IMG/VR virus record: IMGVR_UViG_3300030419_005629 | Coordinates: 1 to 35,461 of that record | Length of the DNA: 35,461 bases | Source of the DNA: a virus | Reading direction: 5' to 3' (one strand) | Position numbers and translations under genes: made by a program | Notes under the pieces: generated by a model | What the model saw: the letters and a program-made list of their open reading frames with translations, nothing else | What the model was told of the DNA's origin: nothing | Databases searched by the model: none | In this document: positions 9,034 through 34,125 of the stretch, one piece after another | Position numbering within the stretch: the first letter of the stretch is position 1 | Layout of the letters: every line of letters starts with the position of its first letter

Positions 9034-10006
9034 AATAAATTTTGCTATGTTAATAGATGGTTGTGTTCAAAGGTCTTATTATGTCAAAGACGGCAAGTCA
9101 TATAAATTTAATACTGATGAACCATACTCACATCATCACTCAATAGGTAATGAGTGTCATTTGGGAATATGGGGATGGCCTTTTTTATTTGATGGTTATT
9201 TTTTAAATTGGACGGAATTTGATGAATTACCTTCTTTAGATTTAGATGTTATTATGGTTGCAATAGAAAAAAAACATGAATATAATGTTGATATGATAAG
9301 AAAAAAATATCCAAATGCTATTGTTGTTAGTTTTATAAAAGAAGATTATTGGTCTAATTTTTCCATACCACAAAGAGTTGAATTTTTTAAGTCGTGTGAT
9401 TACATAACTTTTCCTTGGAAAGTAGACCATGAAGAGAATGGTATGTTAGGTATAAAAACATTATCTGATTTATGTGGTAGAGATGTTCATTATGTACCAC
9501 AACCTCATAATATCGATTTTTTATATGAAAAATATTTTACACAAGATAAGTTAGTACAAATATTAAATTATAAAACACCAGAAGTTTCACCAGGTGAGGA
9601 TACAGAAAGTTTTGTTAATTATATAAGTGAAAAATATGATGTACCAGTAGTTGAACATATTGTCAAATATGAAGGTCCAGAACATAACCAATGGGAAGAA
9701 TTTTTATCTGGTATTACCGATTCATTATATTGTTTTAATTTAGATACTGTTAAAACAGGTGGTTCTATGGCTGTTCAATGTGCAGCACTTGGTATGTTGA
9801 ATATCGGTGGGGTTCAAGATTCAAATGAAATTCTATTTCCAAATACTGCTACTAATGAGTGGAATAAGTTAGAAAAATCTTTTGTGGATTTACATGAAAA
9901 TAATGATGTATTAAGAAAAACTATGTATACTGCTTTTGAAAAGGCAAATGAATACTATTCATATGATTCTGTTAAAAACAGATTTTTGGGAGTTATAAAT
10001 GGTTAA
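9020..10006 (+). CDS. putative GT-B-like glycosyltransferase
   Basis: A 328-residue protein with no membrane segment. The middle has HYVPQPHNIDFLYEKYF, like the end of an N-terminal GT-B domain. Near the C-terminus GGSMAVQCAALGMLNIGG looks like the donor-site helix of GT-B enzymes. No known family is recognised with certainty, and an unrelated sugar enzyme cannot be excluded. Two adjacent ATGs (9020 and 9023) lie in a 14-nt overlap with the previous gene. It ends 8 nt inside the PIG-L gene. Neighbours on both sides are sugar enzymes. Confidence 0.5.
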   Translation: MMLNKINFAMLIDGCVQRSYYVKDGKSYKFNTDEPYSHHHSIGNECHLGIWGWPFLFDGYFLNWTEFDELPSLDLDVIMVAIEKKHEYNVDMIRKKYPNAIVVSFIKEDYWSNFSIPQRVEFFKSCDYITFPWKVDHEENGMLGIKTLSDLCGRDVHYVPQPHNIDFLYEKYFTQDKLVQILNYKTPEVSPGEDTESFVNYISEKYDVPVVEHIVKYEGPEHNQWEEFLSGITDSLYCFNLDTVKTGGSMAVQCAALGMLNIGGVQDSNEILFPNTATNEWNKLEKSFVDLHENNDVLRKTMYTAFEKANEYYSYDSVKNRFLGVING

Positions 10007-10628
10007 GAAACTTGTTATATCTCCGCATATAGATGATGAGGTTTTGGGATGTGGTGGTATATTAGATAAAGATACATTTGTTTTATATTGTGGAGTAGAA
10101 AATAGATATGTTAATGGTGATATGTCAATTAGTGTTGTTACCAGAATAAATGAATTAAAAAAGGTTAGTAAATTTTTAAATTTTGATTTCAAATTATTGG
10201 ATAATAAAGTTAATAATTTTCAACTAAAAGATTTAATTGGTGAATTTGAGGAAGTCATTAGTCGGTTGAAACCAAAACAAATTTACATACCATATCCATC
10301 TTATAATCAAGATCATAGAATTGTATATGAAGCATCATTGATTGCAACTAGACCACATGACATTAATTTTTTTGTTAAAAAGATTTTAGTTTATGAACAA
10401 CCTCATGTTTTCTTTTGGGATAAGACTCATAACATAAATGGTGGATTTGTTCCAAACTATTTTATTCCGATAGATGTGAATAAAAAAATTAAAGCATATG
10501 AACTGATGAAAACACAAGTAAGAAGTTTTAGGAGTTCAGAGAATTTAAAGTCTATGGCTAATTTAAGAGGCACACAAAGTAACAACGAATATGCTGAAGC
10601 TTTTCAAATATTAAGATGGATTGACTAA
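9999..10628 (+). CDS. PIG-L/LmbE-type N-deacetylase
   Basis: A 209-residue zinc hydrolase of the PIG-L family. SPHIDDEVLGCGG (8-20) is the variant of the AHPDDE motif whose His10 and Asp13 hold zinc, and YNQDHR later supplies the second histidine. The family removes acetyl groups from N-acetylated sugars such as GlcNAc conjugates. GGGAG at 9988-9992 supports the ATG, and the gene overlaps its neighbours by 8 nt and 1 nt. The next gene is a formyltransferase, which needs a free amine, so deacetylation followed by formylation is a natural reading. A second PIG-L gene lies at 29839. Confidence 0.86.
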   Translation: MVKKLVISPHIDDEVLGCGGILDKDTFVLYCGVENRYVNGDMSISVVTRINELKKVSKFLNFDFKLLDNKVNNFQLKDLIGEFEEVISRLKPKQIYIPYPSYNQDHRIVYEASLIATRPHDINFFVKKILVYEQPHVFFWDKTHNINGGFVPNYFIPIDVNKKIKAYELMKTQVRSFRSSENLKSMANLRGTQSNNEYAEAFQILRWID

Positions 10629-11281
10629 TGAGAAATATATTAATATGTGGATATAGAGATTGGGCATTTGATTTATATCAAAAAGTAGATGAGCGTGAAA
10701 TTGATAATTGTATTTATGTAGATGATAAAGATTTACTTGAAAGAATGATAGACTATTATCAACCAGTTTATGTATTTTTTATAGGTTGGAGTTGGATTAT
10801 AAAAGAAGATATAATAAATAATTATCCTTGTATTTGTTTACACCCATCACCACTACCAAAATATAGAGGTGGTTCTCCAATGCAACATCAAATAATTGCT
10901 GGTGAAAAGAAAAGTGCTGTCACTTTATTTAAGATGGACGAAGGTATTGATACTGGTGACATTTTATTTCAAAAAGAATTTAGTCTTGATGGAGATTTAG
11001 AAGATATTTATAATAGAGTTAGCAACATAGGAGCTGATGGAGTTATAGAGATATTAGAAGATGGTTATCAAAATCGTATCAAACAAAATGAAGATAAAGC
11101 CACCTTTTACAAAAGAAGAAAACCGTCTATGAGTGAAATAAAAATAGACGATATAAGTAATTTTACTGCTGATGAACTACATGATAAGGTAAGGGCATTA
11201 CAAGATCCATATCCAAATGCCTTCATAACTTGTAAAGATGGTTCTAAACTTTACATTAAGAAAACGGAGTTAAAACAATGA
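10628..11281 (+). CDS. sugar N-formyltransferase-like protein
   Basis: A 217-residue member of the formyltransferase family that uses 10-formyl-tetrahydrofolate. It has LHPSPLPKYRGGSPMQHQII (71-90) with His72, and FKMDEGIDTGDIL with Asp108. In enzymes such as ArnA and methionyl-tRNA formyltransferase the triad is Asn-His-Asp; here the Asn position is Cys70. It is much shorter than Fmt (about 315 aa) and lacks the tRNA-binding C-terminal domain, so an aminosugar is the likelier acceptor. It follows the deacetylase in a TAATG junction. The Asn to Cys change may alter or weaken catalysis, though some small relatives also vary here. Confidence 0.8.
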   Translation: MRNILICGYRDWAFDLYQKVDEREIDNCIYVDDKDLLERMIDYYQPVYVFFIGWSWIIKEDIINNYPCICLHPSPLPKYRGGSPMQHQIIAGEKKSAVTLFKMDEGIDTGDILFQKEFSLDGDLEDIYNRVSNIGADGVIEILEDGYQNRIKQNEDKATFYKRRKPSMSEIKIDDISNFTADELHDKVRALQDPYPNAFITCKDGSKLYIKKTELKQ

Positions 11282-13145: not shown

Positions 13146-13820
13146 ATGCAAAAATATTTCGATAAAATTTATTGTATAAATTTAAAACATCGACAAGATA
13201 GATGGTTAGAAAGCTTAGAGGTTTTTGAAAAATTAGGTATTGGTGATGTAGAAAGGTTTGATGCATATTACATACAACCAGGTATTATTGGATGTACTAA
13301 ATCACATTATGAAGTTGTTAAATTAGCCAAACAAAATGAGTATAAAAATATATTAATTTTTGAAGATGATGTTAAAATACTTAGAGATGATGTTGATGAT
13401 ATATTATCTAATTGTATGGAACAGATAGAAAAACATAATATTGATTATGATATGTTATATTTAGGTGGTAATGTAGTAGGGGATGAAAGTCTTTCATATA
13501 GAATCGATGATAATTTAGCTTCTATCCATATGTGTAAAACGACTCATGCTTATGCTATTGGTTCGTCAGCTTATGATTATATTATTGATACTTATGATAA
13601 TTTAGATTGGGATGATTCTTGGAATTGGTCACAATCAAATCCTAATCGTTATAATATAGATAAATGGTACACCGACAACTTACAGCGTAGAAATAAAACA
13701 TATGGTGTTTATCCTTGTTTAGCAGAGCAAAGAGATAGTTTTAGTGACTTAATGAACACGATGAGTATTTTTTCAATGTATGAAAAGTATAATAGAATAT
13801 TAGAAAAGGTAAATAAATGA
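13146..13820 (+). CDS. GT25-family glycosyltransferase
   Basis: A 224-residue enzyme with the GT25 pattern (LPS beta-glycosyltransferase and collagen galactosyltransferase family). KIYCINLKHRQDRW (7-20), GCTKSHYEVV (49-58), the acidic ILIFEDDVKI (69-78) and a later HAYAIGSSAYDYI segment are in the normal order. Members add galactose or glucose to LPS or protein. The ATG follows the previous TAA with no spacer and no Shine-Dalgarno is visible, so it depends on coupling. It is the first of three consecutive transferase genes, followed by GT11 and GT10 enzymes. Confidence 0.87.
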   Translation: MQKYFDKIYCINLKHRQDRWLESLEVFEKLGIGDVERFDAYYIQPGIIGCTKSHYEVVKLAKQNEYKNILIFEDDVKILRDDVDDILSNCMEQIEKHNIDYDMLYLGGNVVGDESLSYRIDDNLASIHMCKTTHAYAIGSSAYDYIIDTYDNLDWDDSWNWSQSNPNRYNIDKWYTDNLQRRNKTYGVYPCLAEQRDSFSDLMNTMSIFSMYEKYNRILEKVNK

Positions 13821-14578
13821 TTTCTTGTGAATTGGCAGGTGGTTTAGGAAACTATATGTTTCAGATAGCTGCAGGTTATACATTAGCTAAAAAAAACGAT
13901 GATGAATTTTCAGTAGACTTTGATTTGGCGGTACAGATTCATAAAAATATAAATAATTATAAAGAAAATATTTTAAGAAAAGTAAAAAACGAAAAATCTA
14001 ATGTTAAATATTATTATCAAGAAAATAATTTTACATATGAAAAATTACCTTATGTTAAAAATTTGTTATTAAAGGGTTATTTTCAATCGGAAAAATACTT
14101 AGATAGAGAATTGATTTTAGATTTATATTCCATTGATTCGAAATCTTATGAACATATCACTAATTATTATTTACCACTATTGGATAAGAATACATCAGTA
14201 TCTTTGCATGTAAGAAGGGGTGATTATTTGGATAAGGTAGATAGACATCCACCAACAGAACTATCTTATTGTGAAAATGCTATGAATCATTATGGCTCTA
14301 ATTACAATTTTTTAGTCATGAGTGATGACATAGAATGGTGTAAGAAAAATATTACAGGTGATAATGTTGTTTTCATAGAAGGTGAATATGATTATATTGA
14401 TTTATGGTTAATGAGTTTATGTCAACATAATATAATTACCAACAGTAGTTTTAGTTGGTGGGGTTCTTGGTTAAATCAAAATAAAAACAAGAGTGTGATA
14501 GCACCAAAAGTTTGGTTTGGTCCAAATAAAAATTTGGATTCAAGAGATATATACTGTAAAGATTGGATATTAATATGA
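13817..14578 (+). CDS. GT11-family fucosyl/colitosyltransferase-like
   Basis: A 253-residue enzyme matching the alpha-1,2-fucosyltransferase family GT11. It has GGLGNYMFQIAAGYTLA (8-24), GYFQSEKYL, the GDP-binding HVRRGDYL (131-138), FLVMSDDIEWCKKN and the NSSFSWWGSWL segment (209-219). The family uses GDP-L-fucose; known bacterial members also transfer GDP-L-colitose. Length is close to bacterial relatives. The cassette itself encodes a GDP-6-deoxysugar pathway (16984, 17858, 23568), giving a plausible donor. ATGA overlaps join it to both neighbours. Confidence 0.92.
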   Translation: MISCELAGGLGNYMFQIAAGYTLAKKNDDEFSVDFDLAVQIHKNINNYKENILRKVKNEKSNVKYYYQENNFTYEKLPYVKNLLLKGYFQSEKYLDRELILDLYSIDSKSYEHITNYYLPLLDKNTSVSLHVRRGDYLDKVDRHPPTELSYCENAMNHYGSNYNFLVMSDDIEWCKKNITGDNVVFIEGEYDYIDLWLMSLCQHNIITNSSFSWWGSWLNQNKNKSVIAPKVWFGPNKNLDSRDIYCKDWILI

Positions 14579-15411
14579 ATAAAATAAAATTAAAGATAGT
14601 GGAAAATACTTTTTGGCATTGTGAATATAGTAACAATCCAATGCCTCCAGTATCGTTTTCTAAATATGTGGAGTGGGATAGAGATGTTTCAGAAGAAGAA
14701 GATTTGGTTTTTTATACAGATAGGGATATCCAAAACACAAAACCAGGACATAAAAGAAAAGTTGCTTGGTTGATAGAACCATATGTAAAACAACCAGCAA
14801 GATACGAGTGGGTTTTTGAAAATAATCACTTATTTGAGTGGGTGTTGGTTAATGATAAAAAACTTTTAGACAAAGGTGAAAATTTTATTTATTATCCATT
14901 CGGTGGGTGTTGGATCGAAGAAGAAAATAGAAAAGTAGACCACCACAAGAGTAAATTAGTGTCTATTATTGCTTCTGGTAAAAAGAATGTTGTAGACCAT
15001 TACAAAAGACATGAAATTATTGCTAGACATAATAATATCATAGATGTTATGGGTAGAGGTTATACTCCTATAGAGCCAATTAGTGTTGGGTTGATAGACT
15101 ATATGTTCCATGTGGCTATGGAAAATCAGTCTCGTGACTATCACTTTTCAGAAAAACTTATTAATCCAATAATGGTAGGAACTATTCCAATTTATTATGG
15201 GATGCCCTCTATAGGAGATTATTTTGACACAAGGGGTATGATTATCTTTAATGATGTAGAGGAAATTAGTGATATATTAAATTCTTTAAATAAAGAGTTA
15301 TATGACTCAATGTTACCTTATGCTAAAGAAAATTTTAAGATTGCACAAGATTACATTCTTTCAGAGGATTGGATGTATGAAAATATTTTTAAACAAATGT
15401 CAATTATATAG
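14575..15411 (+). CDS. GT10-like (alpha-1,3-fucosyltransferase-type) glycosyltransferase
   Basis: A 278-residue protein starting at ATG 14575 (ATGA overlap) rather than the in-frame TTG twelve bases earlier. Residues 178-217 carry the GT10 signature: FHVAMENQSRDYHFSEKLIN (Glu184, Asn185, Glu193, Lys194), then VGTIPIYYGMPSIGDYF. GT10 enzymes move fucose from GDP-fucose to the 3 or 4 position of GlcNAc or glucose. The N-terminal half is divergent, so the donor could be another deoxy sugar. It sits directly after the GT11 gene, and the two may build neighbouring branches. Confidence 0.8.
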   Translation: MNKIKLKIVENTFWHCEYSNNPMPPVSFSKYVEWDRDVSEEEDLVFYTDRDIQNTKPGHKRKVAWLIEPYVKQPARYEWVFENNHLFEWVLVNDKKLLDKGENFIYYPFGGCWIEEENRKVDHHKSKLVSIIASGKKNVVDHYKRHEIIARHNNIIDVMGRGYTPIEPISVGLIDYMFHVAMENQSRDYHFSEKLINPIMVGTIPIYYGMPSIGDYFDTRGMIIFNDVEEISDILNSLNKELYDSMLPYAKENFKIAQDYILSEDWMYENIFKQMSII

Positions 15412-15419
15412 GTAGAAAT

Positions 15420-16991
15420 ATGTTATCAACTTTAAGTATATATGGTTCACATGATGCTAGTGTTACTTTTGTGGATAAAAACAATGAAATAAAAGTTTTA
15501 GAATATGAAAGATTTGTAAATCAAAGGTATGGTGCTTTTACTCAACGAATGGATCATAGGGATGGTTTGGGTAGTAGTGATGAAAAAAGAAATTTATTTT
15601 TTCAACATATAAAAAAACAAGTAAAACAAGATATAGACTTAGTTATCTATAATGAAATAAGTTCAGAGGACATAGAATTTATATCTAAATATTTTCCAAA
15701 CGCAGAATTTAAAAAAATGGAACATCACAGATCTCACGCGGCTAGTGGATTTTTCCAATCTGGTTTTGAAAAGGCAGTTGTTTTTTCAATAGATGGTGGT
15801 GGTAATGATTACGATGGGGTAACATATACCGCTTCGTATCTGGCCGAAGGTGATAGTGTTGAACTAATTAAAAAATATGATATTAATCTAGGTGTAGCTT
15901 ATGGTCATATAGGATGCCCAATTTCAGAGATAAAACCAGGTCCAGATAGTGACAGACACTCATTAGTTTACGCTGGTAAGGTTATGGGATTATGTGCTTA
16001 TGGTAATGTCATTGAGGAGTGGATAGAGCCTATGGGTAGATATTATAACCACAAACACTTAAGTCAGTTGGGTGATGAAATAGGACTAAATTTAAGTTTG
16101 AATAGTATCGAAGGACAATCAAGTTATGATTTAGCAGCAACTTCACAATATGTTTTTGAGGAATTATCTTTACAATTGATAATACCTTTGATAGATGAAT
16201 ATAAAGAGCATGATGTAATTTTAGTTGGTGGGTGTGCTTTAAATGTCTTATTCAATCAAAGACTATACGAACATTTGAGCAAATCTGGTAGAAGATTATA
16301 TGTACCACCAAATCCAAATGATTGTGGTTTATCTTTAGGTCAATTTTTATTAAATCACCCACAACAAGTTGAGGATATACATTATAATGGTTTTGAATTA
16401 CTAGATTATCAAAAATTAGATTCGTATGTTAAAGATAGGGGTGCTAGAAAAATAGATGTCTCTGAAATAGTTACTTTATTAAAAAGTGGTAAATTGATTG
16501 GTTTAGTTGAAGGATGTTCTGAAATAGGACCTAGAGCTTTAGGTAACAGAAGTATCATTTGTGATCCTTCTTTTCCTAATATGAAAGATATATTAAATTC
16601 CAAAGTAAAATTCAGAGAATGGTATAGACCATTTGCTCCTGTTGCTAGATTAGAAAATGCTTCCGAATACTTTAATGATGTATTTGAGTCAAAATATATG
16701 AGTTTTGCTCCAACCGTAAAAGAAGAGTATGAAGAAGAACTAAAATCAATAACTCATGTAGACAAAACTTCAAGATTACAAACAGTTACAAGAGAACAAC
16801 ACGCTAAATTTTATGATATACTTAAAGAAATGGAAAACCAAAATCATGTTTCAGTTATCTTAAACACTTCATTCAATATATTAGGTAATCCTATTTTAAC
16901 TAAAATAGAAGACGCACTTTATGTATTAGATAACACCGAGTTGGATTATGTGATTGTTGATGATTATTTATTCGGAGAAAAAAATGGATAA
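15420..16991 (+). CDS. NodU/CmcH-type carbamoyltransferase
   Basis: A 523-residue two-domain O-carbamoyltransferase. The N-terminal Kae1-like domain has the metal-binding HHRSHAASGFF (102-112) and FSIDGGGNDYDG. GGCALNVLFNQ and PPNPNDCGLSLGQF follow. The C-terminal domain has GCSEIGPRALGNRSII and FREWYRPFAPV, both family signatures. The reaction uses carbamoyl phosphate and ATP to carbamoylate a hydroxyl, as on Nod factors and antibiotics, so here probably a glycan sugar. Length is a little below the usual 550-600. It has its own AGG-type ribosome-binding site after an 8-nt gap. Confidence 0.9.
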   Translation: MLSTLSIYGSHDASVTFVDKNNEIKVLEYERFVNQRYGAFTQRMDHRDGLGSSDEKRNLFFQHIKKQVKQDIDLVIYNEISSEDIEFISKYFPNAEFKKMEHHRSHAASGFFQSGFEKAVVFSIDGGGNDYDGVTYTASYLAEGDSVELIKKYDINLGVAYGHIGCPISEIKPGPDSDRHSLVYAGKVMGLCAYGNVIEEWIEPMGRYYNHKHLSQLGDEIGLNLSLNSIEGQSSYDLAATSQYVFEELSLQLIIPLIDEYKEHDVILVGGCALNVLFNQRLYEHLSKSGRRLYVPPNPNDCGLSLGQFLLNHPQQVEDIHYNGFELLDYQKLDSYVKDRGARKIDVSEIVTLLKSGKLIGLVEGCSEIGPRALGNRSIICDPSFPNMKDILNSKVKFREWYRPFAPVARLENASEYFNDVFESKYMSFAPTVKEEYEEELKSITHVDKTSRLQTVTREQHAKFYDILKEMENQNHVSVILNTSFNILGNPILTKIEDALYVLDNTELDYVIVDDYLFGEKNG

Positions 16992-17886
16992 AAAAATATT
17001 AGTTACTGGTGGAAGTGGATTAGTAGGTAAACACCTAAAAGATATTTTACAAGATGCAAATTATGTAAGGTCTAAACCTTGGAACTTGTTAAACCCAAGT
17101 AGAGTCGATGACTTACTTTATATATTTAAACCAGATGTTGTTGTACATCTAGCAGCTAGAGTTGGTGGTATAATGGATAACATAACTTATCCAGTAGAAT
17201 ATCTTGAAGAAAATACTTTGATAAATACAAATTTACTTAGAGCTTGTCATGAACATGAAGTTGAAAAAGTGATTGCTGTTAATAGTACTTGTATGTATCC
17301 TGATGTAGTTGAAAATTATCCGATGAAAGAGGATGTTGTATTTGACGGACCTCCGCCTGAAGATAATTTTGCATACGCTATGTCTAAGAGACTTATGGCA
17401 ACTCAAATAGATTCCTATGTTAAAGAGTATAACAAAAATTGGTCTTATTTAATGCCTTGTAACTTGTATGGTGAATATGACAAATACGAAGAACATCACA
17501 GTCATTTCGTTTCGGCTTTAATTAAAAAGATATATGATGCTAAAGATAGTGTTGAGATATGGGGAACGGGTAAACCATTAAGACAATTCATGTATGCTGG
17601 TGATTTATCTAGAGTCATTAAGTATATGATTGAAAATGACATACGAGGAAATTATAATGTAGCTCCAGATTATGTTCATTCAATAGAAGACATAACTAAA
17701 ATAGGTATGAAAGCTTGTGGTAAAGGTGATTTAAAAGTTACCTACGATAACACAAAACCTGATGGTCAGTATAGAAAAGATGTTGATTCGTCAAAGTTAC
17801 TTTCAGTATTAAATGATTTTGAATTTACTTCGTTAGAAGAAGGTATAAGGAGAGTTTATGATAACTTTAGTAAAAGATACAATTGA
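16984..17886 (+). CDS. GDP-L-fucose synthase / GDP-L-colitose synthase-like SDR
   Basis: A 300-residue SDR from ATG 16984 (GGAG at 16974-16977). Motifs match the Fcl/WcaG group: TGGSGLVG (8-15), LAARVGGI, the NSTCMYP segment with Cys103, Y131-x3-K135 and a HSHFVSALIKKI histidine region. The enzyme epimerises and reduces GDP-4-keto-6-deoxymannose to GDP-L-fucose. ColC of the colitose pathway is a homologue that acts on the 3-deoxy ketosugar. The next gene, overlapping by 29 nt, is ColD-like, which makes the ColC reading real. The choice cannot be made from motifs. Gmd, the supplier, is at 23568. Confidence 0.88.
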   Translation: MDKKILVTGGSGLVGKHLKDILQDANYVRSKPWNLLNPSRVDDLLYIFKPDVVVHLAARVGGIMDNITYPVEYLEENTLINTNLLRACHEHEVEKVIAVNSTCMYPDVVENYPMKEDVVFDGPPPEDNFAYAMSKRLMATQIDSYVKEYNKNWSYLMPCNLYGEYDKYEEHHSHFVSALIKKIYDAKDSVEIWGTGKPLRQFMYAGDLSRVIKYMIENDIRGNYNVAPDYVHSIEDITKIGMKACGKGDLKVTYDNTKPDGQYRKDVDSSKLLSVLNDFEFTSLEEGIRRVYDNFSKRYN

Positions 17887-19009
17887 CAATAATGATATAG
17901 ACAGATTAGTAGAATGGCTTAAAACCTATCCAAGACTTACTAAAGGAGAGGTCACTTTAGAATTTGAGGAAAAATATTCCAAATGGTTAGGTAGAAAATA
18001 TTCAGTATTCTGCAACTCAGGATCTTCTGCTAATTTATTAATGTTGTCTGCATTACAACAAGGTGAATATTTAAAGAATAATAAAGTTGTAGTTCCATCG
18101 GTTGCTTGGGCTACTGATTTATCTCCTGTAATGCAGTTGGGTTTAGAGCCAATTTTATGTGATTCTAACAAGAGAGATTTATCGGCTGATTTGAATCATT
18201 TGGAAGATATATTTAAAGAACATCAACCATCGGTTTTAATGTTTGTTTCCGTATTGGGATTAGTTCCTGAAATTAATAAACTTGTTAATTTGTGTGATAA
18301 ATATGATGTTATATTACTAGAAGATACATGTGAGTCTATGGGTTGTGAATTTAGAGATAAGAAATTAGGTACATTTGGCAAGATGTCGTCTTTTTCAACT
18401 TATTTTGGACATCACATATCTACGATTGAGGGTGGTTTTGTTTCAACAGATGATTTTGAATTGTATGAGATGTTAAAGTCGTTGAGGAGTCACGGTTGGG
18501 ATAGAGATTTGGATATAGAAACACAATTTCAATTACAACAAGATTGGGATGTATCGGAGTTCAATTCTTTATATACTTTTTATTATGAAGGATTCAATTT
18601 GAGATCAACAGACTTACAAGCATATATTGGGTTAACTCAAATTGATAAATTAGATAGGTGGGGTATAAAAAGAGAAGAGAATTTATTTAAATATCAAGAG
18701 TTAATTAAAAATGATTATTGGAAACCAACTATAGATTTAAATGATTTTAATTCAAATTTTGCTTATCCTTTAATTCATCCAAGAAGAGAAAAAATAGTTA
18801 AAAAATTACAAGAAAATAAAGTTGAAGTCAGACCTATGATTTGTGGATCAATGGGAACACAACCCTTTTATGCTAAAAAATATGGTAGGTTGGAATTACC
18901 AAATGTTACAGAGATAGATGAATTTGGTTTTTATGTACCTAATCATCCCAAATTAACTGATGATGATATAGAGTTTATTTCTAATATTATAAATGAGATA
19001 ATTTTATAA
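17858..19009 (+). CDS. ColD-like PLP-dependent sugar 3-dehydratase
   Basis: A 383-residue DegT/DnrJ/EryC1-fold enzyme. It has NSGSSANLL (53-61), LLEDTCESMG (153-162) and SFSTYFGHHISTIEGG (178-193). At the position where aminotransferases carry the PLP-binding lysine (six residues before the Glu of EGG) it has His185. The same Lys to His change defines ColD, GDP-4-keto-6-deoxymannose 3-dehydratase, and the related E1-type dehydratases. With Gmd (23568) and the adjacent Fcl-like SDR it would make GDP-L-colitose. AAGGAG five bases before the ATG is a strong site. It ends the first half of the cassette. An aminotransferase role is unlikely without the lysine. Confidence 0.85.
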   Translation: MITLVKDTIDNNDIDRLVEWLKTYPRLTKGEVTLEFEEKYSKWLGRKYSVFCNSGSSANLLMLSALQQGEYLKNNKVVVPSVAWATDLSPVMQLGLEPILCDSNKRDLSADLNHLEDIFKEHQPSVLMFVSVLGLVPEINKLVNLCDKYDVILLEDTCESMGCEFRDKKLGTFGKMSSFSTYFGHHISTIEGGFVSTDDFELYEMLKSLRSHGWDRDLDIETQFQLQQDWDVSEFNSLYTFYYEGFNLRSTDLQAYIGLTQIDKLDRWGIKREENLFKYQELIKNDYWKPTIDLNDFNSNFAYPLIHPRREKIVKKLQENKVEVRPMICGSMGTQPFYAKKYGRLELPNVTEIDEFGFYVPNHPKLTDDDIEFISNIINEIIL

Positions 19010-19066
19010 GATGTTTACATAAGATAAGTTATATTTATATATATATAAACAAGGTTATATTTTAAA
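19010..19066 (+). promoter_or_regulatory. promoter-like intergenic gap inside the glycan cassette
   Basis: A 57-nt gap holding the 16-mer TATATTTATATATATA (19030-19045), identical to that at 3360-3375. AACAAGG (19048-19054) follows, also shared with the first gap. TGTTTA (19012-19017) and TAAACA (19046-19051) could pair around a long loop but form no convincing terminator. The duplication of both elements suggests a second start of transcription for the distal half of the cassette. Orientation of the AT element is uncertain, as its minus strand reads TATAAATA. Confidence 0.5.
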
Positions 19067-20431
19067 ATGAAAAATGTTGTATTTTGGGTAGGTGTAAAAA
19101 ACAATCAATACGCTGAAAAATATGGTGGATGGGAATGGATGGATATCAGCAAAAAGACTTGGCAGTATTGGTGTGATAAAAATGATGTTATATTTTTTCC
19201 ATTTGAAAAACCTATTGAAAAAGACCTCACAAAATTTAGGGTAAATTGGCAAAAATCTATTTTTTGTTTTGATTTACTAGATGAGGCTGGTATTGATTAT
19301 GATCAGATTTGGTTAATTGATGCTACTTGTATGGCTAAATGGGATATGCCAAATATATTTGAATTGACTAATCATAAGTTTACTGCTTGGAGAGAGAAAG
19401 ATAATTTAAGATGGGTTTACGATAGTATTCAGGGGTATAAAGATTTCTTTTCTTATGATTTTAATAAGTATGATTACTTTAGTTCTGGTATATTAGTATT
19501 TAATAAGAGCCATAGAGATATATTTTTAAAGTTTAAAGATTTATATTATAAAAATATTGATAAATTTGTAGAGTTACAAGATAAGACTGTGAGAAAGGGT
19601 ACTGAGCAGACTCCACTAAATTATTGGTTACAGATAAATAATGTTGAAATGAATTTAGATTTACCATTCGTTTATAAATTAACTCATATACACCGTAAGG
19701 ATATGTTTAGTCATAATTGGCAATTAGAAGAAGATAGGATTCCATTTTTTATTAAGTATGGTAAGAATTGGGTTTTTAATGGCATCCCTAAAGATCAGAG
19801 AACTCATGTGATGAAACAGGTTTGGGATTTAGTCAAAGATAATTACGATGAAAATCATTTTTTGAATAATGTAAAGGACAAAAAAGCAGATAAAGATACG
19901 ACTTCAAGAAAATTTAAAGAAGATATTATCACTACCTTTAATCATAGTGATTACGAAAATATGACATTGTTAGAGCTTGGATGTAATCGTGGTGCGACAA
20001 CAAGAATTTATGCTTCCCTATTTAAAAAAGTAATAGCGGTTGAAAGAAGTGAACAAAATATAAATGTTGCAAAAGAAGTTTGTAAGGATGTAGAAAATAT
20101 TCAATTCATATGTCAAGATGTTTATGATAAGAATTTTAATTTACCAAAAGCTGATGTAGTTCATATAGATGCAGGTCATAGTCATCAGGAGGTTTCGTAT
20201 GATATAGACAGGTGTTTAAATCATCTAACGAATCCAATTTTAATTTTTGACGATGTATGTGAAAAGTTATATCCAGATGGTACTATTGGTAAAACAATAC
20301 GAACAGCAATTGATGAATTTATTACTGCTGGTAAAATAAGAGTAAAAAAATATATAGGTGAGGATAGGGGATATAAAACAGGTAATGGTAAGATTTTAAT
20401 GGGAAGAGAGGGAATGGTTTGTAATGTTTAG
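19067..20431 (+). CDS. GT-A-like domain fused to SAM-dependent methyltransferase
   Basis: A 454-residue two-domain protein. Residues 1 to about 260 match the stand-alone transferase at 21810: YDQIWLIDATCM at 78-89 aligns with YDQILSVDADTI, and GTEQTPLNYWL with GTDQTPVNFLI. The metal-binding DxD is DAT here (Asp85, Thr87), so catalysis by this half is doubtful. From residue 300 a class I methyltransferase follows, with LLELGCNRGA (301-310, SAM loop), VIAVERSEQN, and VVHIDAGHSHQEV (364-376). The methyltransferase half may modify a sugar bound or made by the partner half. It is the first gene after a promoter-like gap. Confidence 0.82.
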   Translation: MKNVVFWVGVKNNQYAEKYGGWEWMDISKKTWQYWCDKNDVIFFPFEKPIEKDLTKFRVNWQKSIFCFDLLDEAGIDYDQIWLIDATCMAKWDMPNIFELTNHKFTAWREKDNLRWVYDSIQGYKDFFSYDFNKYDYFSSGILVFNKSHRDIFLKFKDLYYKNIDKFVELQDKTVRKGTEQTPLNYWLQINNVEMNLDLPFVYKLTHIHRKDMFSHNWQLEEDRIPFFIKYGKNWVFNGIPKDQRTHVMKQVWDLVKDNYDENHFLNNVKDKKADKDTTSRKFKEDIITTFNHSDYENMTLLELGCNRGATTRIYASLFKKVIAVERSEQNINVAKEVCKDVENIQFICQDVYDKNFNLPKADVVHIDAGHSHQEVSYDIDRCLNHLTNPILIFDDVCEKLYPDGTIGKTIRTAIDEFITAGKIRVKKYIGEDRGYKTGNGKILMGREGMVCNV

Positions 20432-22574: not shown

Positions 22575-23571
22575 ATTAAATAAAAAATATGTAATCGGAA
22601 CTCATGTGATGTGGTTTGAGATTGAGATGTATGCTGACTTTATTGATGGTATGGTAAATCTATTGGAAACTGTGGAGAACAAAGAGAATGTGACTATTGA
22701 TTTGTGTTTTAATATGTTACAGCATTTTGAAAAGGTTGATTATGATAAGATTAAAAAACATGAGTTGGTAATTAAATTTAAAAAAGGTGTATCAACATTA
22801 GAATCTATGGGATACATTGTCAATCAGGAGATTAAAGATGGTGATGAGTTTTATTTTCATGCCGACTATAGACGAGATTTGAACTATAACTATTGTAAAA
22901 AAGTCGATTATGTAATGTGGGGAGAGACTGATAGTTTCTTTCCAAGAGAAGCATTTCAAGTCATAGAGACATTAGCCAACTATACCGATGGACAAAATAT
23001 TCATAAATATCTGTTGAGTTTTTCAGATAGAAAGATGTGGGATAGTAGTTGGGATCCATTAGTTCATAATGACTATGTTGATGTTGAATTTATAGATGAT
23101 GACAATGGACATTTATATCCCAAACAGGCAAAGTCTCAGTTACCAATAGAAACAATGAATGAGATAAATGCAAAGGCTAATGAATTTGATATTTCATACA
23201 TTCAACACCCAAAGATAAGTGGTGCTTGTTTAGTATTATCAGCAGACTTGATAAAGTTTGGGGTTAATGTACCATCGTGTTTATTATATAATGACGATGA
23301 GGGTTTATCTATAATGTGTCAGAAACTATTAGGTCAGAACTTTATGCAGTTTGTCTGTAAAAATGTTTTACATGTTCATGCTAGAAGACACTCAAAGAAA
23401 AGACTTTATGTAAAAGGTGAGGACAACCCACATTCGTTTATTGGTGAGAAGAATAATGATTTTCAAGAATTTTTAAAATTATCAAAAGAGAATATACAAA
23501 AATTAATAACAGGTCAAGGTAAATTTAAAGAGTATCAAGACCTTAAAAACATATTGGAGAAAACAAAATGA
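22564..23571 (+). CDS. putative GT-A-like glycosyltransferase
   Basis: A 335-residue protein. VMWGETDSFFPREAF (117-131) looks like a GT-A metal site (Glu121-Thr-Asp123). A later region has PSCLLYNDDEGLSIMCQ, then LHVHARRHSKKR near the C-terminus, like the catalytic-base and His-rich end of GT2-type folds. I do not recognise a named family. It overlaps the previous gene by 11 nt, has no clear ribosome-binding site, and leads into gmd by ATGA overlap. Transfer of a sugar made nearby is the likely role, inferred mainly from these acidic motifs and context. Confidence 0.55.
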   Translation: MGIKLNKKYVIGTHVMWFEIEMYADFIDGMVNLLETVENKENVTIDLCFNMLQHFEKVDYDKIKKHELVIKFKKGVSTLESMGYIVNQEIKDGDEFYFHADYRRDLNYNYCKKVDYVMWGETDSFFPREAFQVIETLANYTDGQNIHKYLLSFSDRKMWDSSWDPLVHNDYVDVEFIDDDNGHLYPKQAKSQLPIETMNEINAKANEFDISYIQHPKISGACLVLSADLIKFGVNVPSCLLYNDDEGLSIMCQKLLGQNFMQFVCKNVLHVHARRHSKKRLYVKGEDNPHSFIGEKNNDFQEFLKLSKENIQKLITGQGKFKEYQDLKNILEKTK

Positions 23572-24533
23572 AAAAAGCACTTATTACAGGTATAAATGGT
23601 ATGGATGGTAGTCACCTTGCTGATTTTTTATTAGAGAAGGGGTATGAAGTATATGGTGTGGAAAGAAGATCATCTACTAAGAATAGAACAAATACCAGTC
23701 ATCTTGAGAAAAAAATAACATTTCTTAATGGGGATTTGACAGATCAAAATTCATTATTAAGATGTCTGAGACAATCTAATCCTGATGAGATTTATAATTT
23801 AGCTGCTCAATCATTTGTAGGTGCTAGTTGGGATACGCCAGAACAAACAGGTGATGTTACTGGTATGGGTGTTTTACGAGTTTTAGAAGCAATACGAGAG
23901 TTAAAAAGTGGTAAGGATATTAAATTTTATCAAGCATCTACTTCCGAAATGTTTGGTAAGATGGTAGAAAATCCAGCAAATGAAAATACACCATTTTATC
24001 CACGAAGTCCCTATGGAGTTGCAAAACTATATGGTCATTGGATTACAAAAAATTATAGAGAGTCTTATGATATGTTTAATGTAAGTGGTATATTATTCAA
24101 TCATGAATCAGAAAGACGAGGTATTGAATTTGTTACTCGTAAGATTACCGATGGTGTTGCTCGTATTCATTTGGGATTGGAAGATTACATCACTTTAGGT
24201 AATTTAGATTCTAAACGAGATTGGGGATATTCACCTGATTATGTTAAATGTATGTGGTTAATGATGCAACAACAAACTCCAGGTGATTATGTTATTTCTA
24301 CTGGTAAGGCACATTCTATACGAGAGTTTTTAGATGTGGCTTTTCAACATATAGGAGTTACTAATTGGGAAAAATATGTGAAACAAGATCCAAGATTTAT
24401 GAGGCCTGCAGAAGTTGATGTATTGCGTGGAGATTCTACAAAAGCTCATGAGGTATTGGGTTGGGAACCTGAAACTTCATTTGAAAAAATGGTTTCGGTA
24501 ATGGTTGAGAATGATCTTAATTTATTATCATGA
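23568..24533 (+). CDS. gmd: GDP-mannose 4,6-dehydratase
   Basis: A 321-residue extended SDR that matches Gmd closely. It has ITGINGMDGSHL (6-17), LAAQSFVGASW, STSEMFG (124-130), Y149-x3-K153 in SPYGVAK, FNHESERRG, and the strongly family-specific LGNLDSKRDWGYSPDYV and RPAEVDVLRGD. It turns GDP-D-mannose into GDP-4-keto-6-deoxymannose, the shared precursor of GDP-L-fucose, GDP-colitose, GDP-rhamnose and GDP-perosamine. GGAG at 23556-23559 and ATGA overlap fix the start. Its partners here are the Fcl/ColC-like and ColD-like genes at 16984 and 17858. Host GDP-mannose would be needed. Confidence 0.95.
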   Translation: MKKALITGINGMDGSHLADFLLEKGYEVYGVERRSSTKNRTNTSHLEKKITFLNGDLTDQNSLLRCLRQSNPDEIYNLAAQSFVGASWDTPEQTGDVTGMGVLRVLEAIRELKSGKDIKFYQASTSEMFGKMVENPANENTPFYPRSPYGVAKLYGHWITKNYRESYDMFNVSGILFNHESERRGIEFVTRKITDGVARIHLGLEDYITLGNLDSKRDWGYSPDYVKCMWLMMQQQTPGDYVISTGKAHSIREFLDVAFQHIGVTNWEKYVKQDPRFMRPAEVDVLRGDSTKAHEVLGWEPETSFEKMVSVMVENDLNLLS

Positions 24534-32895: not shown

Positions 32896-34125
32896 ATGAG
32901 TGATAAAGTAATAAGTTTCATACAACCAAGTAGAAACAATTTAAAGTATTTAAAGTGGTCGTATAATAGTATAAGAAAGAACTTAGGATATAGACATGAA
33001 TTATGTTGGGCAGATGATTTCTCAAATGATGGAACTTGGGAGTGGATGAATGAGATTGTCAAGAAAGACCCGAATGTAAAGATACACAGAAACGAAGGTC
33101 CCACAAGATTAGGACACACCATACTATATGATACATTAGTTGATATGGCATCAAATGATATTGTGATGATATATCACGCTGATATGTACGCTTGTCCTAA
33201 CTTAGATACAGAGATACTTAAACATTTGGAACGAGGTAAGGTAGTAAGTGCAACACGAATAGAACCACCACTACATCCAGATGGACCAGAAAAGATTTTA
33301 CAAGATTTTGGAATAGAACCCGAAGAATTTGATGAACAGGGGTTGATGAGATTTTTAGATGAGGGTGTTGATTATTCTAAAAAACCAACAAATGGAATAT
33401 TTGCACCTTGGGCTATATACAAGGATGACTTTACGAGTATTGGTGGACACGACCCGTTATATGCTCCACAATCTAAAGAGGACTCTGATATATTTAACAG
33501 ATTTAAATTAAACGGATACGAGTTGATTCAGACTTGGAGAGGTTTTGTATATCATATGACTTGTAGGGGTTCAAGATTTAAAGATGGAGCTATGAGAAAT
33601 CCAGCAGGTCAAGTCTTTATGAAAGGTAGAGAATCATCAGAATGGTTAGCTCAAAATTTAAGAAGTACAAGAAACTTTATTCGTAAATGGGGACATATGG
33701 TTCAACATGATGAGTATCTTAAACCAATAGTTCCACCTAAATATGATGTCGCATTTGTTGCTTATAATTGTAATAAACAAATGTTATATGAATTAGAACC
33801 TTGGTGTAATATGATATTTTTGGATTCAGGTGCTATAGGAAAGTATGCCCATCAATATCGAGTGGAAGAACAACCAAACACTCAGTTTAACTTGGACGAG
33901 AGAATAAAGTTATATGGTAATAGTAAGATTTCGGATTTACATGATATTTGTGTAGAGTTTGATTGTAATCAATTGAATAATGAAAACTTTCAAGTGTTGG
34001 TCAATTTATCAAAAATGTTACAAGATAGTGGTGAGGTAGGTGAGATGGAATATGACATTTTTAAGTTTTACATCAAATCACTTGAAACATACGAAAAAAA
34101 CTTGATTGTTTGTAAGAGTAATTAG
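32896..34125 (+). CDS. GT2-family glycosyltransferase with extra C-terminal domain
   Basis: A 409-residue protein. Residues 1 to about 280 are a GT-A domain paralogous to the 25539 gene: SFIQPSRNNLKYLKWSYNSI (7-26), MIYHADMYACPN with His94-Ala-Asp96 replacing DxD, SIGGHDPLYAPQSKEDSDIF, and VYHMTCRGSRFKDG. The final 125 residues (from about PPKYDVAFVAYNCNKQM) are not in the paralogue and match nothing I know. They are helical and acidic near the end. AAGGGG seven bases upstream supports the ATG. It closes the glycan cassette. Confidence 0.83.
   Translation: MSDKVISFIQPSRNNLKYLKWSYNSIRKNLGYRHELCWADDFSNDGTWEWMNEIVKKDPNVKIHRNEGPTRLGHTILYDTLVDMASNDIVMIYHADMYACPNLDTEILKHLERGKVVSATRIEPPLHPDGPEKILQDFGIEPEEFDEQGLMRFLDEGVDYSKKPTNGIFAPWAIYKDDFTSIGGHDPLYAPQSKEDSDIFNRFKLNGYELIQTWRGFVYHMTCRGSRFKDGAMRNPAGQVFMKGRESSEWLAQNLRSTRNFIRKWGHMVQHDEYLKPIVPPKYDVAFVAYNCNKQMLYELEPWCNMIFLDSGAIGKYAHQYRVEEQPNTQFNLDERIKLYGNSKISDLHDICVEFDCNQLNNENFQVLVNLSKMLQDSGEVGEMEYDIFKFYIKSLETYEKNLIVCKSN

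Follow-up and report, generated by a model that had tools for sequence, protein, structure and literature searches.

What sugar would a virus transfer with two different fucosyltransferase-type enzymes encoded side by side, and onto what? This question is raised by a viral record of 35,461 bases, which was analysed whole and is called the window here. It is a fragment with phage genes at its left end (a T4-type clamp-loader subunit, a head maturation protease and an exonuclease), its middle being a single long series of sugar genes, all on one strand. The resulting glycan cassette occupies about 25 kb of this T4-like phage fragment and has the GT11 and GT10 genes inside it; Rfam and tRNA scans over the whole window gave no matches. 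Between positions 259 and 8026 the left flank (clamp loader, exonuclease, two phrog_2170 glycosyltransferases and a GT2) is largely syntenic with three of the loci compared (L002, L003, L014) while cassette content varies, as one would expect if a hypervariable glycan island occupied a fixed site.

As a first-pass annotation had proposed, adjacent GT11 and GT10 genes are both present, at 13817-14578 and 14575-15411 (plus strand). The GT11 gene clearly exceeds the PF01531 cut-off (103.3 bits against 23.9; E 1.9e-29) and matches a PHROG glycosyltransferase family (PHROG 2644; E 3.9e-51), and its product carries the HxRRGDY motif in the form HVRRGDY. A GT11 profile search of PDB sequences found no match at E<=0.1, and a fold search was used in its place: the AlphaFold2 model (pLDDT 93.5) has its best solved matches in Arabidopsis FUT1, NodZ, POFUT1 and FUT8, all of them GDP-fucose enzymes. 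Profile, motif and model together confirm 13817-14578 as a predicted GT11 enzyme, of the alpha1,2-fucosyl/colitosyltransferase type. Linkage is not fixed by the family, however, given that HhFT2 from H. hepaticus is a GT11 member and yet forms alpha1,3 bonds (PMC4202792). Nor is the donor, since GT11 enzymes such as WbgN, the colitosyltransferase of E. coli O55, accept GDP-colitose as well as GDP-fucose (PMC11987014); the donor is therefore not readable from the sequence.

With the 14575 gene, the Pfam match is weak, yet over threshold (C-terminal domain of PF00852; 26.5 bits, cut-off 23.9), which is why extra tests were run. Aligning 38 phage GT10 proteins revealed invariant residues at E68, K125, R145, E183-N184, E193-K194 and P205, and the profile built from them finds the alpha1,3-fucosyltransferase of H. 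pylori (HpFucT; 2nzw) at 5e-25, followed by plant and human FUTs; among the matches listed at E<=0.1 there are GT10 fucosyltransferases only. In the profile alignment, R145, E193 and K194 pair with R195, E249 and K250 of HpFucT by our own residue count. The AlphaFold2 model (pLDDT 94.8) ranks HpFucT top in Foldseek, and VIA-align superposes it on FUT9 (Z 15.8, 246 residues, 3.9 A) and HpFucT (Z 15.3, 238 residues, 3.4 A), albeit with unrelated GT-B enzymes scoring just below, so the fold by itself is unspecific and it is the sequence motif that makes the assignment specific. The earlier placement of this gene in GT10 holds, based on PF00852, the 2nzw profile match, the catalytic residues and a FUT9/HpFucT-like model. 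A spurious weak match can be ruled out from the profile, the model and the structure alignments, and 14575-15411 is confirmed as a predicted GT10 enzyme of the alpha1,3/4-fucosyl/colitosyltransferase type.

Directly upstream lies a GT25-family glycosyltransferase gene (13146-13820, plus strand; PF01755, 43.7 bits, cut-off 24), whose product is a probable acceptor-building enzyme. Reading the sequence, the ATG of GT11 (13817) overlaps the GT25 stop (13820) as ATGA, and the ATG of GT10 (14575) overlaps the GT11 stop in the same manner; this start was preferred over the TTG at 14563 from a mechanical ORF call. In view of both overlaps, translational coupling of all three genes is probable. They are followed by a NodU/NolO-type carbamoyltransferase gene (15420-16991, plus strand; PF16861, 198 bits; phrog_1601).

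Which donor the cassette would supply is best judged from three further plus-strand genes. In line with the earlier claim that Gmd and an Fcl-like enzyme share the cassette with the transferase pair, Gmd (GDP-mannose 4,6-dehydratase) is found at 23568-24533 (TIGR01472, 438.5 bits, equivalog cut-off 415) and an Fcl-like epimerase/reductase at 16954-17886. The latter overlaps a DegT-family gene (17858-19009) whose product has its best solved relatives among ColD enzymes (2gms WbdK, 187 bits; 3gr9, 183 bits) rather than CDP-sugar E1 (137 bits) or perosamine synthetase (125 bits), and which misses the RfbH equivalog cut-off (199 of 423 bits). At the site of the PLP-binding Lys this product has His, with YFGHHISTIEGG aligned to YSHHIATMEGG of 2gms, and the ColD variant 3b8x, in which Asn replaces the first His, marks the active-site residue in that alignment. 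The window's other DegT gene, 28077, encodes Lys at the PLP site. The His recurs in ColD-type proteins of L002, L003, L004, L013 and L015; of the 35 DegT proteins in our first viral set, 28 have it, some of these being RfbH-type. Alignment and PDB matches identify 17858-19009 as a ColD-type PLP enzyme, a GDP-4-keto-6-deoxymannose 3-dehydratase, and a perosamine-type aminotransferase is ruled out by the active-site His and the closest ColD match. In the established pathway, GDP-mannose is converted by Gmd, ColD and ColC in turn to GDP-L-colitose, and ColD, unlike RfbH, works without an E3-type reductase. Colitose is 3-deoxy-fucose, a rare sugar.

As for the Fcl-like protein, its PDB match resembles GDP-fucose synthases, but against the GDP-L-fucose synthase equivalog (NCBIfam NF047922) it reaches just 198.6 bits where the cut-off is 500. 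We rejected a plain GDP-fucose synthase on account of this shortfall and of the neighbours, which point to ColC; PDB match and neighbours taken together, 16954-17886 is most likely ColC-like, a putative GDP-colitose synthase. Adjacency to the ColD-type gene makes colitose the likelier product, and the enzyme set (Gmd, ColD-type, ColC-like) more likely predicts GDP-L-colitose than GDP-fucose. Where the first-pass annotation had left the glycan as fucosylated or colitosylated, the second option is thus strengthened by the ColD-type gene with its active-site His and the first has become less likely.

It might still be argued that GDP-fucose, made by Gmd and the Fcl-like enzyme, is the real donor of two ordinary fucosyltransferases, with the ColD-type enzyme feeding another sugar or both donors being used. 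The resemblance of the Fcl-like protein to GDP-fucose synthases and the dual donor use of GT11 enzymes speak for this, as does cyanophage S-SCSM1, reported to carry Gmd, a GDP-fucose synthase and an alpha1,2-fucosyltransferase (PMC9602691). So do four GT11/GT10 phage loci (L009-L012) that have Gmd and Fcl without ColD within the stretch read; these would represent a fucose version, fucose being the likelier sugar there. Against it, the Fcl-like gene of the window overlaps ColD, misses the synthase cut-off and has no second Fcl-like gene beside it within the 35-kb fragment, outside which one could lie, and its whole phage clade accompanies ColD: in the Fcl-like tree, the phage clade that surrounds the window numbers nine members, and each of their loci contains ColD (6 kb off in L018). 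Once L018 is counted, this is the only clade uniform for ColD, and ColD-associated Fcl-like proteins do not form one overall clade in that tree (8 changes, a value reached in 89 of 500 shuffles). Nor is ColD significantly associated with GT10 over the GT11-selected loci (p 0.13). All in all, we regard fucose as the donor in the window as unlikely. An 8.3-kb contig of a Lokiarchaeota MAG (L123) has GT11-Fcl-ColD genes, and its Fcl clusters with that of phage L016 (100% support); this is probably a phage contig binned into the archaeal MAG.

The arrangement of the two transferase genes recurs. Our sets comprise 14 GT10-selected viral loci, 11 records of which also have GT11, and 78 GT11-selected loci, with GT10 found in 25 of the 50 records searched. 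After near-duplicates had been removed, 23 GT11-selected loci had both genes, and in 12 of these GT11 stands immediately 5' of GT10, where 1.8 would be expected (P 1.7e-8). The same holds for three of six GT10-selected loci (0.23 expected, P 0.001), besides two fusions. These P values are indicative, as the permutation treats genes within a locus as exchangeable and loci as independent. The reverse order, GT10 before GT11, is not enriched. Within that indicative frame, diverse phage contigs have GT11 immediately before GT10 far more often than chance predicts. GT25 sits directly upstream of GT11, or is fused to it, in 20 of 59 non-redundant GT11-selected viral loci, GT25-GT11-GT10 being a recurrent viral block that L002 and L003 extend to GT25-GT11-GT10-ColC-ColD-Gmd. 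Variants were also seen. Two different tandem GT10 genes directly 3' of GT11, then a second GT25, occur in L039, L053, L065 and L068; GT25 and GT11 are fused in single ORFs of opposite domain orders in L022 (9305-10801) and L070 (9956-12211); and L040 (4508-5230) has its GT11 split into two ORFs, perhaps through gene decay or a sequencing error, the gene being intact in the near-identical L038.

Consistent with a joint role, the two domains also occur in one chain. Scanning with the fused protein of L014 yielded 14 ORFs that join GT2, GT11 and GT10 (11 distinct at 90% identity), about 800 aa long and 1040 aa in L194. Among nine representatives checked, all have the DxDD-type motif of GT2, seven the strict GT11 pattern (HxRRGDY) and seven the strict GT10 pattern (EN...TEK...P-I/V-Y-W-G), and those that miss a strict GT11 or GT10 pattern still score in domain profiles. 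Downstream of the fusion, carbamoyltransferase, ColC, ColD and Gmd follow in L185, L186, L187 and L196, and ColC, ColD and Gmd in L192 and L193; the carbamoyltransferase adjoins the fused gene in L185, L186, L195 and L196. Seven distinct fusions can be read for 4 kb or more on their downstream side; by our own count five of these have a ColD-type His enzyme there, the exceptions being L184, with an RfbH-like enzyme, and L194, where none was seen in the stretch examined. The window displays these genes unfused but in matching order, GT11-GT10-carbamoyltransferase-ColC-ColD, and its Gmd lies 4.6 kb beyond ColD; L197 is intermediate (GT2-GT11 fused, GT10 separate). What our analysis demonstrates is the identity of the genes, their catalytic residues and folds, the conserved order and the natural fusions.

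Relatives of the GT10 gene are spread across many bacterial phyla, as judged from a genome scan with a 9-row alignment, the full 38-row set being too diverse. Some have GT11 and ColD-type genes nearby (among them Hoeflea L111, Planctomycetota L122 and Rhodospirillaceae L158), while the tight GT11-then-GT10 order is rare in the bacteria scanned, so the phage module, although more compact, does not stand apart from the polysaccharide loci of bacteria. In one Phycisphaeraceae MAG, an ORF of 612 aa (L096, 8930-10765) combines a GT10 domain with a weak match to GT11 and may be a GT11-GT10 fusion of cellular origin.

To our minds, the phage module probably, though by no means securely, makes GDP-L-colitose and attaches two 6-deoxy-L-sugars to one short oligosaccharide, with a phage protein as the likely target. 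Gmd (23568) would act first, dehydrating host GDP-mannose; the ColD-type enzyme (17858) would next remove the oxygen at C3, and the ColC-like enzyme (16954) would complete GDP-L-colitose by epimerisation and reduction. The acceptor would be extended by the coupled GT25, or by the fused GT2 in relatives, whereupon GT11 may place one residue on the outer sugar (alpha1,2, by family analogy) and GT10 a second on the inner one (alpha1,3/4). The same two families make Lewis y in H. pylori, Fuc-alpha1-2-Gal-beta1-4-[Fuc-alpha1-3]-GlcNAc (PMC4202792), and a 3-deoxy-Lewis-type tip, similar to a blood-group-like structure, is therefore a natural guess for the product, maybe O-carbamoylated by 15420. We infer the donor in vivo, the linkages, the order of action, the acceptor and the target. 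That the glycan has two 6-deoxy-sugar linkages, as originally suggested, is a reasonable inference from gene adjacency and the GT2-GT11-GT10 fusions; mimicry of a host or eukaryotic structure is not supported, the Lewis antigen analogy being its sole footing.

The adjacency could also reflect shared donor supply and cassette shuffling, GT10 and GT11 acting on different glycans or on protein. Indeed, human FUT10/11 show that GT10 enzymes can also be protein O-fucosyltransferases (PMC11949838), GT11 and GT10 lie 4-5 kb apart in L004, L013, L026 and L036, and transferase number varies, with tandem GT10s in L039, L053 and L068. Strong one-way adjacency of GT11 to GT10 and repeated single-chain fusions with GT2 are hard to square with such independence, however, and we find separate acceptors improbable. 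Another scenario, rather unlikely in our opinion, sees the cassette remodel not the virion but the host's surface polysaccharide during infection, GT11 and GT10 capping LPS or O-antigen via host flippase and ligase and, for example, blocking superinfection. While bacterial GT10, GT11 and ColD genes usually reside in surface polysaccharide loci and 32896-34125 has a weak GtrB-like match, no flippase, polymerase or polyprenyl-phosphate transferase was seen in the cassette, albeit on a 35-kb fragment outside which they could lie; the only membrane protein predicted for the window by a simple hydropathy scan, the small 675-1028 product, is outside the cassette. Moreover, a T4-like, presumably lytic phage would leave little time for a coat change. 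It is this lack of flippase, polymerase and membrane-spanning proteins in the cassette that favours, over host remodelling, cytoplasmic glycosylation of a phage protein; a virion protein is possibly the target, a step that is weak with the record being a fragment. Mycobacteriophages are a documented case of virion glycosylation (cited in PMC12619734). The fullest version of our preferred reading, a self-contained aquatic phage operon, in some lineages with a trifunctional GT2-GT11-GT10 enzyme, that makes GDP-colitose and builds a dicolitosyl 3-deoxy-Lewis-Y/b-like tip on its own virion proteins, is distinctly improbable as a whole.

Comparison with known systems puts these predictions in context. 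H. pylori makes Lewis Y/b with FutC (GT11) and FutA/B (GT10), the same two families as in the window (PMC4202792), but its LPS genes are dispersed (PMC3234257) and it uses GDP-fucose, whereas the phage genes are coupled or fused and lie beside ColD. Its HpFucT is matched by the window GT10 in fold and catalytic residues. A GT25 galactosyltransferase also takes part in the H. pylori Lewis pathway. The window further shares its logic with the colitose O-antigen locus of E. coli O55, which combines Gmd, ColD/WbdK and ColC with the GT11 enzyme WbgN (PMC11987014). Unlike colitose O-antigen loci, it is viral, has a GT10 partner and shows no flippase or polymerase. The polysaccharide of Vibrio cholerae O139 is a dicolitosyl Lewis-b-like structure with two colitoses on a Gal-GlcNAc unit, the same type as the predicted phage product; there it is a bacterial capsule/LPS, here a phage cassette, and the likeness is one of predicted product structure. 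Nothing relevant on the families of the O139 colitosyltransferases was found in the open-access literature searched. Among T4-like cyanophages, islands of S-SM2, S-T4, S-SCSM1, S-SCSM2R and ACG-2014f bring together GT10, GT11, GT25 or Gmd/Fcl/ColD-type genes, and fucosyltransferases in cyanophage cassettes are already known in kind. Unlike in the window, GT10 and GT11 are kilobases apart in S-SM2, S-T4 and S-SCSM2R; in ACG-2014f, Gmd, an Fcl-like gene and GT11 accompany a ColD-type gene (FYFGHHMTTIEGG) that carries the annotation aminotransferase or hypothetical, with no GT10 in the stretch read. Neither phage GDP-colitose synthesis nor a GT11-GT10 fusion was found in the open-access literature searched.

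Once a coupled or fused GT11-GT10 pair is seen alongside a donor pathway of its own, what was loosely annotated as phage glycan genes gains a specific, testable product. If our reading is true, viruses would be capable of making a Lewis-type branch as well as a rare dideoxy sugar, phage genes annotated as aminotransferases may be re-read as ColD, and single-chain enzymes would become available for the synthesis of colitosylated glycans. A dicolitosyl virion tip would then be the viral colitose counterpart of the H. pylori Lewis antigens and the V. cholerae O139 polysaccharide.

Other parts of the cassette deserve mention. Between 26454 and 30501 lie genes for a PseB-like dehydratase (26454), an epimerase (27314) and the PLP-Lys aminotransferase (28077), together with a WbqC-like protein (29225) and a PIG-L deacetylase (29839); this gene content suggests a second sugar pathway, for an amino sugar in the same glycan. 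A formyltransferase adjoining a PIG-L-type deacetylase (9999-11281) suggests an N-formylated sugar. Finally, 19067-20431 is one ORF whose parts are encoded apart in L002 (15887-16678; methyltransferase domain at 19010-19600), and is, as read from this comparison, another predicted gene fusion within the cassette.
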